Source: an uncultured Agathobaculum sp. (GTDB lineage: Bacteria; Bacillota; Clostridia; Oscillospirales; Butyricicoccaceae). Taken from it: DNA of 34,936 bases. A program made the position numbers and the translations under genes. Below the pieces are notes generated by a model. That model saw only the letters and a program-made list of their open reading frames with translations, was not told the DNA's origin and did no database searches. Below are positions 2,691 to 32,419 of the stretch, in pieces (position 1 is the stretch's first letter; each line of letters starts with the position of its first letter). The DNA lies in the NCBI GenBank assembly GCA_944384725.1, contig CALWUJ010000019.1, positions 1 to 34,936 on the forward strand, written 5' to 3'.

Positions 2691-3143
2691 ATGGATTTCT
2701 ATTTGACACTTCAAGAAATAATGAAGCAAAAAGGTTTGACTATACCGGAAGTAGCACGATCCTGTGGGCTTACAGATTCTACTGTAAGGAGCATAATTGA
2801 CCGAAAGCAGAAGAAGATCGCATTAAATATTGCTTTCAAACTCAGTCATGGGCTTGGGGTTAGCCTTGAGCGACTTAATGGCGAGCAGGTTGACGCGACT
2901 CCGATACAGGATTTTGGCATCCTACTTAACAACGCAGAAAAAGAATTCATAAAAAAATACCGCACTCTCGATGAGTACGGTAAAGCAGCTGTGGATTCGA
3001 TTTTAAATATAGAATATAAGCGTTGCGCTGAGCAAGCAGATTCGCCCCGCCCGATGGTCATGGCGGCAGCTCGCAACGGCGCTGTCAGTCAGATTGAAGA
3101 GATTCACCCGGACGAACTTCCCGACAACACACCGCTTCCATAA
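2691..3143 (+). CDS. XRE-family phage transcriptional regulator
   Basis: This 150-residue protein has an N-terminal XRE helix-turn-helix (about residues 5-62: LQEIMKQKGLTIPEVARSCG...LTDSTVRSIIDRK) and a C-terminal helical segment with EKEFIKKYRTLDEYGKAAVDSIL, common in prophage repressors of Clostridia. The start is supported by AAGGAGGG seven bases before the ATG. The promoter at 2638-2666 overlaps operator-like repeats, suggesting self-regulation. Its 3' end overlaps the ImmA/IrrE gene tail-to-tail by 59 bp. This is the likely lysogeny repressor, with ImmA as the candidate protease that removes it, although the pair are on opposite strands here. Confidence 0.8.
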   Translation: MDFYLTLQEIMKQKGLTIPEVARSCGLTDSTVRSIIDRKQKKIALNIAFKLSHGLGVSLERLNGEQVDATPIQDFGILLNNAEKEFIKKYRTLDEYGKAAVDSILNIEYKRCAEQADSPRPMVMAAARNGAVSQIEEIHPDELPDNTPLP

Positions 3144-3720
3144 ACGGCATGAATCGCTGATATAGTTTGCGTTCTAATAGCGACGATAAAAACTTATTCC
3201 TGTCATGCAGGGTTTTCATTCTTTCTGCTCGGAATCGCGCGGCTTGCTTTGAAATACGACATGCCGCCGCAATTTCATCTGCGGTATGTAGATCAAGCCC
3301 CCACAATACGCAGGCAGGCGCCAATAAGCGGGCGGCAAATTGATTGGCCGCAGTCTCCTGCGGGCTATCTCCCGGGGAAGGTTCACGGTTTTTTGTCGTG
3401 ATACTTCCCGGCGCAACATGCCCAAGGACAATATGCCCTAACTCATGCGCAATCGTAAAACGGATTCTTTCCGGTGAGCATGCTTCACTGTACAGGATGA
3501 CTGGCTCTTCCCCAGCGTAAAACGTAAGGCCGTCCGTCTGTACAGTAAGCGCAGTTAGATTTCTTTTCTGTATCAGCGCTTTTGCATCCTTATACGATAC
3601 TATACGAACGCCGAGCTGATCGCGGATTATATTCAGATTGACCGGCAAACGGTCTATACCGCAATCCAAAAGTATTTTCCACGCCGCATCTCTTGCGTTT
3701 TGATAATCTTTGTAGCTCAC
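3085..3720 (-). CDS. ImmA/IrrE family metallopeptidase
   Basis: This 211-residue protein carries the zinc peptidase motif HELGHIVLGH (HExxH) and a downstream ETAANQFAARLLAP segment typical of ImmA/IrrE (COG2856) enzymes. In ICEBs1 and many prophages such enzymes cut the XRE repressor to induce the element. The GTG at 3718-3720 is chosen as the start because GGAGGTG lies seven bases upstream and the residues after it (SYKDYQNARDAAWKILLDCG) match the usual family start. An upstream extension to 3888 runs through hairpins and is unlikely. The gene is convergent with the XRE repressor gene and overlaps it by 59 bp. Confidence 0.9.
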   Translation of the reverse strand: MSYKDYQNARDAAWKILLDCGIDRLPVNLNIIRDQLGVRIVSYKDAKALIQKRNLTALTVQTDGLTFYAGEEPVILYSEACSPERIRFTIAHELGHIVLGHVAPGSITTKNREPSPGDSPQETAANQFAARLLAPACVLWGLDLHTADEIAAACRISKQAARFRAERMKTLHDRNKFLSSLLERKLYQRFMPFMEAVCCREVRPGESLQSD

Positions 3721-28993: not shown

Positions 28994-29020
28994 AAAAAAG
29001 GCCGCTTTGCAGCAGCCTTT
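28994..29020 (-). terminator. nrdD-nrdG operon terminator
   Basis: AAAGGCCGC (28997-29005) pairs with GCAGCCTTT (29012-29020) with one wobble, followed on the minus strand by TTTTTTCTG. It is 15 bp after the nrdG stop. Confidence 0.75.
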
Positions 29021-29035
29021 CCGTTCTAATGTATC

Positions 29036-29545
29036 TTATCGGTACTGCTCTGCCCATACGGGCGCATTTGCCTCTAACGAAGCCGGTACATCCAGCACAC
29101 GCTGGTTTGCGCTGCCCCGGAAACGCAGTTCCAGATTGCGCTCTGCTTCGATAAACGGCCCATCCACCAACAGATCCAACTGTCCCAGCAGCTTTTTCAC
29201 AAACGGATCGGGCAACTCCAGCAGCTGCTCAAACGTATAGCCGGAATACGCCATCAGGTGCTTACCCTTTGCCTTGAGTGCCACCGCCAGTTCATACAAC
29301 GGCTGCGGCTGACAAAACGGCTCGCCGCCCGAAAAGGTCACCCCCTTGACCAATGGATTGCGGCACATATCGCGCAGCAGCGTGTCCAAATCCATCTCCT
29401 TGCCGCCCGCAAAGTCATGCGTCTGCGGGTTATGGCAGCCGGGACAATGATGCGGACAGCCTTGTGTGAACAGCGTATAACGGAAGCCGGGGCCGTCCAC
29501 AATGGACTCCCCGACCGTACCCGCGATGCGTATGGTACCTTCCAT
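29036..29545 (-). CDS. nrdG: Anaerobic ribonucleotide reductase activase NrdG
   Basis: This 169-residue radical SAM enzyme reduces S-adenosylmethionine to put the glycyl radical on the anaerobic reductase. The 4Fe-4S ligands are C30, C34 and C37 (GCPHHCPGCHNP), followed by the SAM-binding TFSGGEPFCQP. The ATG overlaps the stop of the small radical-domain gene by one base (TGATG); a GTG just upstream (29548) has slightly better spacing to GAGGAG and is an alternative start. It ends the nrdD operon. Its substrate glycine here appears to lie in the small neighbouring protein, not in NrdD. Confidence 0.95.
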   Translation of the reverse strand: MEGTIRIAGTVGESIVDGPGFRYTLFTQGCPHHCPGCHNPQTHDFAGGKEMDLDTLLRDMCRNPLVKGVTFSGGEPFCQPQPLYELAVALKAKGKHLMAYSGYTFEQLLELPDPFVKKLLGQLDLLVDGPFIEAERNLELRFRGSANQRVLDVPASLEANAPVWAEQYR

Positions 29546-29730
29546 CACGCAGTATGCTCCTCTTCCATCGAGCAACAAGACACCGTGTGCTTCACACGAT
29601 CATGCTCCTCTGCACGCTTGGCATTATTGAAACGGTCCAGCGTACCAACCAGATAACCCGTAATACGGCGGATGCGCTCAAAGCCGACGCCCTCGCCAAT
29701 CAACTGCTCCTGCATTTCCTTTTTCTCCAT
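29545..29730 (-). CDS. Stand-alone glycyl-radical domain of the anaerobic ribonucleotide reductase
   Basis: This 61-residue protein carries FERIRRITGYLVGT followed by RFNNAKRAEEHDRVKH. That lines up with the C-terminal glycyl-radical region of full-length NrdD (E. coli RRVCGYLGSPDARPFNAGK...RRVKH), making Gly25 the predicted radical site. The gene has its own AAAGGAAG ribosome site and starts 19 bp after the nrdD stop, so it is a real separate cistron, not a simple frameshift. It sits between nrdD and nrdG with a one-base overlap to nrdG. The last residues (SCCSMEEEHTA) add a CC pair. Related tiny proteins are sometimes annotated as anaerobic reductase in Clostridia; I know of no functional study. 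Confidence 0.8.
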   Translation of the reverse strand: MEKKEMQEQLIGEGVGFERIRRITGYLVGTLDRFNNAKRAEEHDRVKHTVSCCSMEEEHTA

Positions 29731-29749
29731 GATGATAACGCTTCCTTTC

Positions 29750-32083
29750 TTAATCCTTGACAACCTGCAACGTGTTGGGCAGACGGTCGGCTTCCTCTGC
29801 GGGATCGCCGTGATAGCCCAGCGTCATACTATTCAAATGCTTATAAAGACCCATCTTTTGCAGCTTGGAGAGCGGCACACCCTCACCTTCATGCCGTCCG
29901 CAGCGCGGGCAGGTCTCTCCGATGATGCCGGTGTACCCACAAACCGGATCGCGGTCGATCGGGTGATTGATTGCACCATAACCGATTCCGGCTTCCTTCA
30001 TCGCACGAACGACTGCCTCAAACGCTTCCAGATTCTGCGTCGGGTCGCCGTCCAGCTCAATATAGCTGATGTGTCCGCCGTTGGTCAATTCATGATACGG
30101 CGCTTCACGCATGATCTTGTCAAACGCGGAGATCGGATAATACACCGGAACATGGAATGAGTTGGTATAATAGTCTCGGTCGGTCACGCCTTCAATGCGT
30201 CCGTATTTTTCCCGGTCGATCTTGACAAAGCGGCCGGACAGTCCCTCTGCCGGAGTCGCAATCAGCGAGAAATTCAGGCCGTATTTTTCACTCGCCTGAT
30301 CCATACGCTCCCGCATATGTCCCACGATTTCCAAACCAAGGTTCTGCGCTTCTTCGCTTTCGCCGTGATGCTTACCGATCAGCGCCTTGAGCGTCTCCGC
30401 AAGACCGATAAAGCCCAGCGTCAGCGTGCCATGCTTGAGCACATCGCCCACCGGATCATCCGGGCCGAGCTTGTCCGAATCGATCCAGACACCCTCGCCC
30501 ATCAGGAAGGGATAGTTGCGCACCTTCTTGGCTGACTGAATGCGGAAACGTGCCAACAGCTGCTCAATGACCAAATCAATTTTACGATCCAAATCCTCAA
30601 AGAACCAATCCAGATCGCCATGGCTGCGGATAGCGATACGCGGCAAATTGATCGAAGTAAACGACAGGTTGCCGCGGCCGTTAACGATTTCACGGGTCGG
30701 ATCAAAGTGGTTACCAATGACGCGCGTACGGCATCCCATATAGGCGCATTCGGTTTCCGGATGCCCGGGCTTGTAATACTGCTTGTTGAACGGAGCATCC
30801 AGGAAAGAGAAGTTGGGGAACATACGCTTAGCCGACACACGGCAGGCCAGCTTGAACAGATCGTAGTTCGGCTCCCCTTCGTTATAGTTGACGCCCTCTT
30901 TGACCTTGAAAATGTGAATCGGGAAAATCGGCGTTTCCCCATTGCCCAGACCAGCCTCGGTTGCGAGCAAAAGCTGCTCGATCACCAGCCGGCCTTCGGG
31001 TGAAGTATCCGTACCATAGTTAAGCGAGGAGAACGGAATCTGCGCACCCGCACGCGAATGCATGGTGTTCAGGTTATGTACCAATGCCTCCATCGCCTGA
31101 TAGGCGCTCTTGCGCGTCTCCTTATCCGCATATTTGCGGGCAAAGCGCAGACATTTCTCAACCGACTGCTCGTCCAGCGTTTCACCAAGCGCCGCTGCCA
31201 TCGCCTCGTCATAACCATTGTCGCCGGCAAGGCACGCCCATTTCCCGGTCTCCTGCTCGACACGCTCAGTCAGCGCCTGTGCGTCGACCTCGTTATTTTC
31301 ATCCGCGCCGAACACCTCAAGCGCTTTGGCTAGATTGCTGCGGAACAGCTTGCGGAAGGTCTTGCGGATGCCGGGCGCCATCGAATAGTCGAAATTCGGC
31401 ACCGACTGGCCGCCGTGCTGATCGTTTTGATTGGACTGGATGGCGATGCAAGCCAGCGCCGCATACGAACGAATGTCATTCGGTTCGCGCAGGAAGCCGT
31501 GTCCGGTGGAAAAACCGCCATCAAACAGCTTGAGCAAGTCAATCTGGCAGCAGGTCGTCGTCAGCGTCAGAAAATCCAAATCGTGAATATGGATATCCCC
31601 TTCCCGATGCGCCGTCGCATGCGCCGGATCGAGGATAAACATTTCGTAAAACTGCTTTGCGCCCTCCGAGCCATACTTGAGCATAGTGCCCATCGCCGTA
31701 TCGCCGTCAATGTTCGCGTTTTCGCGTTTTACGTCGTTTTCCAGCGAGGACTGAAAGGTCAGATCCTCATACACCTTCATCAGTTTGGTGTTCATTTCGC
31801 GCGCACGGGTACGCTCGTTTCGATACAGGATATACTTCTTTGCCGTGCGGGCATGTCCGCTTTCGATCAAAACCTTTTCTACTGTATCTTGTATCTGCTC
31901 CACCGTAGGGATCTGCTCTCCCACATCGGCTTCGAGCATCTTTTCCACTTGCTCAGCCAGACCGCGCGCCATCTCGAAATCCTGCCCGCCGGAGGCTTGC
32001 GCCGCCCGGAAAATCGCATTGGCAATCTTGTCAATCTCAAAGGGGGCCTTTCGTCCGTCGCGTTTGAGAATCTGCTGAATCAT
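29750..32083 (-). CDS. nrdD: Anaerobic (class III) ribonucleoside-triphosphate reductase NrdD, lacking the glycyl-radical tail
   Basis: This 777-residue protein is the catalytic part of the oxygen-sensitive reductase that makes dNTPs from NTPs. An ATP-cone occupies about residues 1-95 (ILKRDGRKAPFEIDKI...ARTAKKYILYRNER), followed by the ten-stranded barrel with SNQNDQHGGQSVPNFDYSM and MHSRAGAQIPFSSLNYG. A zinc-ribbon-like segment (DPVCGYTG...CPRCGRHEG, C715, C725, C728) is near the end, with Asp where the first Cys of the usual CxxC stands. Instead of RRVCGYL the protein ends in a different 49-residue tail with LGYHGDPAEEADRLPN. The start at 32083 places the ATP-cone correctly. NrdR-like boxes and DnaA boxes lie upstream. 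Confidence 0.93.
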   Translation of the reverse strand: MIQQILKRDGRKAPFEIDKIANAIFRAAQASGGQDFEMARGLAEQVEKMLEADVGEQIPTVEQIQDTVEKVLIESGHARTAKKYILYRNERTRAREMNTKLMKVYEDLTFQSSLENDVKRENANIDGDTAMGTMLKYGSEGAKQFYEMFILDPAHATAHREGDIHIHDLDFLTLTTTCCQIDLLKLFDGGFSTGHGFLREPNDIRSYAALACIAIQSNQNDQHGGQSVPNFDYSMAPGIRKTFRKLFRSNLAKALEVFGADENNEVDAQALTERVEQETGKWACLAGDNGYDEAMAAALGETLDEQSVEKCLRFARKYADKETRKSAYQAMEALVHNLNTMHSRAGAQIPFSSLNYGTDTSPEGRLVIEQLLLATEAGLGNGETPIFPIHIFKVKEGVNYNEGEPNYDLFKLACRVSAKRMFPNFSFLDAPFNKQYYKPGHPETECAYMGCRTRVIGNHFDPTREIVNGRGNLSFTSINLPRIAIRSHGDLDWFFEDLDRKIDLVIEQLLARFRIQSAKKVRNYPFLMGEGVWIDSDKLGPDDPVGDVLKHGTLTLGFIGLAETLKALIGKHHGESEEAQNLGLEIVGHMRERMDQASEKYGLNFSLIATPAEGLSGRFVKIDREKYGRIEGVTDRDYYTNSFHVPVYYPISAFDKIMREAPYHELTNGGHISYIELDGDPTQNLEAFEAVVRAMKEAGIGYGAINHPIDRDPVCGYTGIIGETCPRCGRHEGEGVPLSKLQKMGLYKHLNSMTLGYHGDPAEEADRLPNTLQVVKD

Positions 32084-32157: not shown

Positions 32158-32213
32158 GCACCATATCTTGTGCCTGTGCTATATATTTTACCGCTCCCGC
32201 AACGGCATGTCAA
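32158..32213 (-). promoter_or_regulatory. nrdD promoter overlapped by two NrdR-like boxes
   Basis: The minus strand has TTGACA (32213-32208), 17 bp, TAAAAT (32190-32185). Two sequences close to the NrdR consensus ACACTATATATTGTG lie on the plus strand: GTGCTATATATTTTA (32176-32190), which covers the -10, and GCACCATATCTTGTG (32158-32172), just downstream. NrdR represses reductase genes when dATP is high (family knowledge). The 18-bp centre spacing is shorter than the roughly 31 bp usually seen. Confidence 0.65.
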
Positions 32214-32294: not shown

Positions 32295-32377
32295 TGTGGA
32301 CAATGTGGAAAAGGCTTTGTGGATAACAGATTGCCTGTGGAAAAGCCTGTGTCTATCCTGTTGACAGCTGTGGAAAA
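32295..32377 (-). promoter_or_regulatory. Cluster of five DnaA boxes upstream of nrdD
   Basis: On the minus strand five sequences fit the DnaA box TTWTNCACA or differ by one base, all in the same direction: TTTTCCACA (32377-32369), TTTTCCACA (32344-32336), TTATCCACA (32326-32318, perfect), TTTTCCACA (32312-32304) and TTGTCCACA (32303-32295). The last two are directly adjacent. An AT-rich stretch (about 32225-32294) follows toward nrdD. Such a density is not expected by chance in this GC-rich genome. Confidence 0.8.
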
Positions 32378-32403
32378 CGTACTATGGCTTATCTTGACCA
32401 CAA

Positions 32404-32419
32404 TACAAGATATAGTGTG
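32404..32419. promoter_or_regulatory. Distal NrdR-like box
   Basis: The minus strand reads CACACTATATCTTGT, a near-perfect match to the NrdR consensus. It lies about 230 bp upstream of the predicted nrdD transcription start, beyond the DnaA boxes. Confidence 0.5.

Follow-up and report, generated by a model that had tools for sequence, protein, structure and literature searches.

A class III ribonucleotide reductase of Agathobaculum and other gut bacteria in which a separate small protein probably supplies the glycyl radical domain

The anaerobic (class III) ribonucleotide reductase (RNR) locus of an uncultured Agathobaculum sp. was analysed on contig CALWUJ010000019.1 of assembly GCA_944384725.1; the whole stretch of 34,936 nucleotides (nt) is referred to here as the window. 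Three genes follow one another on the minus strand, namely nrdD, a small cistron predicted to encode a stand-alone radical domain, and nrdG, which is predicted to encode the activase (Table 1). The small open reading frame (ORF) begins 19 nt after the nrdD stop codon, in a different frame, and the first base of nrdG, at position 29545, is the last base of the stop codon of the small ORF, a one-base overlap that had been described in an earlier reading of the letters alone (the first-pass annotation). A consensus scan listed no terminator-like hairpin in the gap between nrdD and the small cistron, and one inside the small cistron (29600-29582).

Table 1. Features of the nrdD locus, with positions counted from the first base of the window (aa, amino acids; SAM, S-adenosylmethionine)
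Feature	Position	Strand	Description	Basis
nrdD	29750..32083	-	777 aa, class III RNR large protein; ATP-cone (residues 4-92) and barrel, without glycyl radical loop; ATG at 32083, stop codon ends at 29750	
Small cistron	29545..29730	-	61 aa, putative stand-alone NrdD-type glycyl radical domain; ATG at 29730	
Likely ribosome-binding site of small cistron	29741..29748	-	AAAGGAAG	Sequence
nrdG	29036..29545	-	169 aa, radical-SAM activase; TIGR02491 134.7 bits (cut-off 126.1)	
Cys178 codon	31550..31552	-	Equivalent to Prevotella copri Cys171, first barrel strand	Alignment
Cys451 codon	30731..30733	-	Equivalent to P. copri thiyl Cys416	Alignment
Zinc segment	29894..29950	-	D712..C715...C725PRC728GR, Asp replacing the first Cys	Alignments
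NrdD tail	29750..29893	-	47 residues after C728GR, and stop codon	Conserved in genus and sister genera
Gly25 codon	29656..29658	-	Equivalent to radical Gly711 of P. copri NrdD	Alignment
Promoter-like sequence upstream of nrdD	32185..32213	-	TTGACA-17-TAAAAT	Consensus match; 5 in region, 3.3 expected
Terminator-like hairpin after nrdG	28995..29022	-		Consensus match; 5 found, 4.3 expected
Four TTWTCCACA sites and one palindromic site upstream of nrdD	32304..32418	-		Pattern scan

The window NrdD matches the catalytic barrel models PF13597 and TIGR02487 (592.8 and 647.8 bits, respectively). Coverage of PF13597 was found to be complementary, with NrdD aligning to positions 1-531 of 562 and the small ORF to positions 533-562, and a pattern search for the RxxGY radical loop (and also for R, one to three residues, GY) gave no occurrence across the 777 aa of NrdD; the claim of the first-pass annotation that this protein lacks the radical motif was thereby borne out. 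Alignment equated Cys178, Cys451, Asn472 and Glu613 with Cys171, Cys416, Asn435 and Glu581 of P. copri NrdD, and these four residues, together with Asn122 and Asn124, were identical in all 50 relatives compared, both split and fused. The latter two correspond to the NxN flap described in the accessible part of PMC11226230. Among the features checked, the glycine loop is the only one that is missing from the large protein.

An aspartate had previously been noted in place of the first zinc cysteine, and it is indeed present; it was observed in 50 of 50 relatives in one alignment (A2) and in 21 of 21 in another (A4), seven of which are fused. Because fused relatives carry this residue too, it is a trait of this NrdD subfamily and not special to the split. 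In a metagenome-assembled genome (MAG) titled Fibrobacter, the NrdD frame (L086:2713-4966) is without the zinc segment that is present in a close relative (L085).

The tail that follows the zinc segment (GEGVPLxKLQKLGLYKHLNSxTLGYHGDPAEEADR) is conserved within the genus and, to a lesser degree, among sister genera, and the ratio of non-synonymous to synonymous substitution rates (dN/dS) over this region was 0.065 (36 codons, 22 sequences). It is not a property of split NrdDs in general, as other split lineages have shorter tails, for example GExVSxEKLxELRKKYPNMP or GEGVSVERVKNASL. The earlier suggestion that the tail may form a docking site is not supported, given these other tails and the low confidence of both structural models described below.

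The small ORF scored 31.1 bits against PF13597 (cut-off 26.2), and its NCBIfam matches were confined to the C-termini of three models of NrdD. In a search against solved structures, its residues 17-48 aligned with the C-terminus of P. copri NrdD (E = 5.6e-8), where Gly25 corresponds by residue count to Gly711, the residue named as the radical glycine in the accessible part of PMC11226230. Gly25 was invariant across 18 aligned rows. PF01228 (Gly_radical, the C-terminus of pyruvate formate-lyase (PFL)) was absent from the Pfam matches of the small protein at E values up to 1. These results, together with the likely ribosome-binding site upstream, agree with the proposal that the second cistron encodes the radical region. 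The radical core had a dN/dS of 0.042 (39 codons, 21 genus sequences) and is under purifying selection. The C-terminus of the small protein (window 29545-29600) carries Cys-Cys-Ser or a similar sequence and ends in [TS]A (VSCCSMEEEHTA) in the genus and in some sister genera; this type of ending is missing in most other lineages.

A set of 60 genomes, including that of the window, was searched using the small protein as query, and a match was found in 45; the matches within the genus lay nearly all in short open frames, and families outside the genus also gave frames of 774-852 aa. A Pfam NRDD search identified the split pair in 23 of the 25 genus genomes, the window genome included, and in neither G017 nor G024. 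In addition, 80 loci were compared (the best among 585 named stretches), a set biased towards split forms by the use of the small protein as query. A separate radical ORF was located downstream of an NrdD ORF in 63 of these loci, the gene was fused in 7, and a radical ORF occurred without NrdD in the available sequence in 10. The split loci include Butyricicoccus, Massiliimalia timonensis, Scatolibacter rhodanostii, Lachnospiraceae, Erysipelotrichaceae and other Bacilli, as well as MAGs titled Fibrobacter and Desulfovibrio. Subdoligranulum variabile TSDC17.2 is likewise split (782 and 54 aa, stop to stop), and the NrdD of Acetoanaerobium noterae is fused. A copy of nrdG was found no more than 1 kb downstream of the radical ORF in 23 of 23 cases in the genus and for 52 of 64 named radical ORFs. 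Conservation of the split gene order elsewhere, which the first-pass annotation had suggested as a check, is observed.

Surveys with less bias towards split forms gave a radical-loop match in 119 of 295 genomes across the order, and across the phylum in 166 of 398, in at least 21 of which the sole match lay in an open frame no longer than 188 aa. The order was represented by 118 genomes among the matches listed, which were classed from frame length and match start, not from a neighbouring NrdD, and with a loop model that does not detect the second, distantly related NrdD found in the genus. Short separate frames only were observed in 44 of these genomes and fused frames only in 40, while 20 had a longer separate protein plus a fused frame, 8 the longer protein only, 3 a short frame plus a fused one and 3 were ambiguous; separate loops only were thus present in 52 genomes, and a fused loop in 63.

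The possibility that a sequencing or assembly frameshift has broken an ordinary fused nrdD, for which the different frames of the two ORFs in the window might be cited and which had been named at the outset as a potential refutation, is practically nil, as it is refuted by recurrence of the split in many genomes with three different frame relations, and as neither the extra conserved tail of NrdD nor the N-terminus of the small protein itself is found in fused NrdDs. It is also highly improbable that a programmed frameshift, read-through or bypass joins both parts in one chain. Many loci have only a short gap between the two ORFs (median 38 nt), and the NrdD frame is shared by 25 of the 64 named radical ORFs, both of which would suit such a device; however, the frame offsets 0, 1 and 2 were distributed 25/25/14, all three were found inside one genus, and in the 14 contiguous in-frame loci the intervening stop codon was TAA in some and TAG in others. 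Furthermore, each of the 64 radical ORFs has a start codon with a purine-rich site, the start having been chosen by that criterion.

The locus very probably encodes a three-gene class III RNR whose radical domain forms a distinct and obligate subunit. Provision of this domain in trans, as the first-pass annotation had proposed, is supported by the presence of a conserved and selected gene with its own start, by the retention of the checked residues in NrdD and by genomes in which no other RNR was found (see below). It is established, and stated also in the accessible parts of PMC4390871 and PMC11226230, that NrdG forms the glycyl radical, that the glycine passes it to a thiyl cysteine, and that this glycine is the point at which oxygen breaks the chain. 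In the split enzyme NrdG would install the radical on Gly25, probably with the small protein seated in the barrel and its loop inserted at the position of the fused enzyme's own loop. Radical transfer from Gly25 to Cys451 would then start a reaction that proceeds as in fused NrdD; formate is the likely reductant, the formate-type Asn472 being the counterpart of Asn435 in P. copri. Docking of the small protein would resemble that of the fused loop, and it would be activated in the complex, as outlined for YfiD with cleaved PFL in the accessible part of PMC8683613, and would be obligate for the split NrdD.

A single-chain structure was predicted with AlphaFold for a close relative (L075) whose nrdD and small gene share one frame, the natural stop codon being read as Gln. 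With alignment A4, in which all 21 radical loops stand in one column, the model had a mean predicted local distance difference test (pLDDT) score of 75.9 and a predicted template modelling (pTM) score of 0.71. The pLDDT was below 50 for the tail (749-791), 66-79 for the blocks before the loop (790-809) and approximately 71 for block 830-839. The best match to this model in the PDB using Foldseek was 8p23_B (E = 3.9e-47, root-mean-square deviation 9.9 over the whole chain), which confirms that the predicted fold is that of a class III NrdD.

A number of observations weigh against an obligate separate subunit. An nrdG was not seen inside 1 kb for 12 of the 64 named radical ORFs, the sequence ending there in 5 of the 12. 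In the first model (A2) the pLDDT was below 50 for residues 748-855 and the radical loop of row 1 was misaligned with respect to the fused loops, and in the A4 model the glycine blocks (810-829) had pLDDT scores of 47 and 38, so that the loop was not confidently placed. Neither a second NrdD nor a class I or II RNR was found by profile in the window genome, which is 78% complete, so that a second RNR may be missing from the assembly. Within the genus, a second full-length NrdD of another subfamily was identified in 15 of 25 genomes and a class I/II-like RNR match in 6 of 25, and most cells of the genus may for these reasons not depend on the split enzyme. The first-pass annotation had named a second full-length nrdD as grounds for rejecting its proposal; this gene was not seen in the window genome and does exist in the genus, where it weakens the argument from a sole enzyme but does not overturn the split.

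In the genus the split NrdD was found alone only in G000, G008 and G009, all of which are 76-81% complete. The case is stronger outside it: the split NrdD was the only RNR detected in the draft genome of a named strain of M. timonensis (G061) using PF13597, PF02867, PF00317, TIGR02505 and TIGR02504, and the split pair was the only one in four MAGs (G065, G066, G074 and G075) using the same models except PF00317. By contrast, G017, without NrdD, has a class II enzyme. Three genomes (G060, G062 and G067) combine the split pair with a class I/II match, and three others (G063, G069 and G077) have split and fused NrdD together. An alternative is that the small protein is a GrcA/YfiD-like spare for another full-length NrdD, with the split NrdD a non-catalytic or regulatory paralogue. 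The second NrdDs of the genus would suit this explanation, as would the separate radical proteins that accompany fused NrdD elsewhere; it is nevertheless very unlikely, as the split NrdD retains the checked catalytic residues, as no other RNR was found beside it in several genomes, and as the small gene is located between nrdD and nrdG.

A tree was constructed from the barrels of 103 NrdDs, excluding the tail, the rows having been gathered mostly with the small protein and being rich in split forms; seven rows without a nearby radical ORF, which represent a distant other kind of NrdD, were kept as outgroup. Branch support was of the quick kind. Split and fused NrdDs interleave on this tree with 8 changes, in which gain and loss of the split are indistinguishable and of which 4 are forced by starred branches, and the fused NrdD of Clostridium sporosphaeroides was placed among split forms. 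A single origin of the split was rejected, with all 71 split forms constrained to one clade (AU test, P = 0.00044); either splitting has been recurrent or some genes have re-fused.

The possible origin of the tail was assessed with 24 and 48 distinct segments remaining after a pattern filter, rather than with all loci. The idea that the tail is a degenerate copy of the radical loop was rejected, as without the GEGV part 181 of 4000 column shuffles matched equally well. The match of GEGVGFERIRRITG of the small proteins to the tails, on the other hand, was better than all 4000 column shuffles. It is supported that the NrdD tail and the N-terminus of the small protein share a GEGV-type linker only, any likeness beyond GEGV being weak, and this linker may stem from a duplication at the time of the split.

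In glycyl radical enzymes the radical glycine is a weak point, at which the chain is liable to be cleaved. Since this is where oxygen cuts, a separate part of approximately 7 kDa would allow just the damaged piece to be replaced; this is a weaker inference than the radical transfer set out above, and an oxygen-repair advantage, as suggested by the first-pass annotation, is plausible. It may instead be that the two-piece enzyme works and that the split is neutral, a chance fission having been fixed without benefit and without a repair role, to which we would give rather less than an even chance. Such neutrality is in keeping with the NrdJa/NrdJb RNR, divided without a known gain in oxygen repair as far as the accessible parts of PMC9669993 and PMC4520616 go, and with the variation in tails between split lineages. 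On the other hand, the tree shows several recurrences or reversals of the split, and separate and fused loops are about equally common in the order. Recurrence of the split is by itself no demonstration of benefit.

Free NrdD-type radical proteins were also observed. One type, of 86-97 aa, has a conserved extra N-terminal part (VxVxGG.LSxxEIxAYI...DGDxVDLxY) and occurs in Ruminococcus flavefaciens FD-1 (L127:2605-2870) and at L112, L114, L136 and L156; this N-terminal part was covered by no Pfam or NCBIfam model. A fused match was also present in 20 of 28 genomes with this longer type, which is a possible candidate for a spare part of class III RNR. The gene in R. flavefaciens FD-1 is flanked on one side by a divergent gene for a Crp/Fnr-like regulator (L127:1838-2548 (-); its Crp helix-turn-helix score is slightly below the cut-off) and on the other by a rubrerythrin gene (2891-3487 (+)). 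Neither is a common neighbour of free radical proteins, a Crp/Fnr-like gene being found at just 4 of 34 loci and rubrerythrin at 1 of 34. A third kind of free radical protein was noted in other Clostridia (L157-L163), mostly in frames of 86-98 aa and with a loop like RITGYLSKVxNFNDAKKAEL; several of these also have a fused NrdD frame of approximately 680-730 aa.

In a family designated f59 (L150, L164, L165 and L166), loop-less NrdD frames of 757-766 aa with a short tail are followed by the longer radical protein and nrdG, an arrangement that is a second form of the split. Related loci are L149, L151 and L152, at which the radical gene adjoins nrdG and an NrdD was not seen in the stretch. A broader reading can be offered only tentatively, as a minority view: class III RNRs of gut anaerobes would use an exchangeable radical part, which is an obligate subunit, made separately and renewed upon oxygen damage, in one broad set and a spare for fused NrdD in others, with f59 looking as if the spare part had become the sole subunit.

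Further arrangements were recorded. The genomes G531, G492, G474 and G535 each contain two or three short radical ORFs, and at L099 two radical ORFs (51 and 70 aa, stop to stop) stand behind one NrdD. An extra radical loop (GYLVGDLDRFNNAKRAE) lies away from the nrd operon in two congeners, G012 (L032/L168) and G019 (L167), and in the latter it forms the end of a 492-aa open frame. Split and full-length NrdD are present in these two genomes as well. In the Eggerthella phage EL753P1 (L200, OP172808.1) small ORFs follow the phage nrdD, one with a stretch resembling the radical loop (GYLTGSADRWNDAKKAELRDRVKH), and a faecal record labelled Bacteriophage sp. (L202, MT838827.1) contains a radical ORF of the longer type.

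Upstream of nrdD, the TTWTCCACA sites listed in Table 1 are what we take to be DnaA-box-like sequences, and the palindrome is presumably NrdR-box-like. Four of the six DnaA-box-like sites in the window are located here, with 0.54 expected for the whole window. The NrdR-box-like pattern was derived from the window itself, so that its count proves nothing.

The split places the radical glycine of an enzyme of DNA-precursor synthesis on a tiny separate protein in many lineages, and offers a natural two-piece system in which radical installation, docking and exchange could be measured. For a large number of gut bacteria it would be a mistake to take such NrdDs for truncated proteins or to dismiss the 61-aa gene as meaningless. 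In the literature covered, which took in few subscription journals, no description was found of a bacterial NrdD with a separate radical domain or of a class III spare part. Validated glycyl radical spare parts are limited to the two that serve PFL, others being speculation, according to the accessible part of PMC8683613.

Every part of the system is recognisable as class III RNR, and what sets it apart is the radical residue on a separate, conserved protein. The fused class III NrdDs of P. copri (8p23), T4 (1h7a) and Thermotoga maritima (4coi) agree with the split enzyme in fold and catalytic cysteines, in the zinc segment, in the sequence of the radical loop and in having NrdG as partner, and that of P. 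copri also has an ATP-cone; here, however, a separate 61-aa protein carries the radical loop, which in NrdD is replaced by a new tail. Phage nrdD genes may likewise consist of more than one ORF, with 6 phage cases in the accessible part of PMC3653736 and 95 of 104 genomes in that of PMC12363816, in which the pieces are separated by insertions commonly encoding endonucleases or intein domains, whereas the genes in the window are 19 nt apart and the cut isolates one functional domain. In the class II NrdJa/NrdJb of Pseudomonas the RNR chain is also carried by two proteins with the C-terminal domain separate (accessible parts of PMC9669993 and PMC4520616), but class II uses B12 and no glycyl radical, while here the radical-bearing residue itself is separated. 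GrcA/YfiD and T4 Y06I are likewise small radical-domain proteins that dock into a larger enzyme and are activated by its activase (PMC8683613, accessible part). The small protein described here differs in that it belongs to NrdD rather than to PFL and adjoins nrdD and nrdG, and, compared with GrcA/YfiD, in its size (61 aa against approximately 14 kDa) and in a partner NrdD without a radical loop of its own, for which it would be an obligate subunit.

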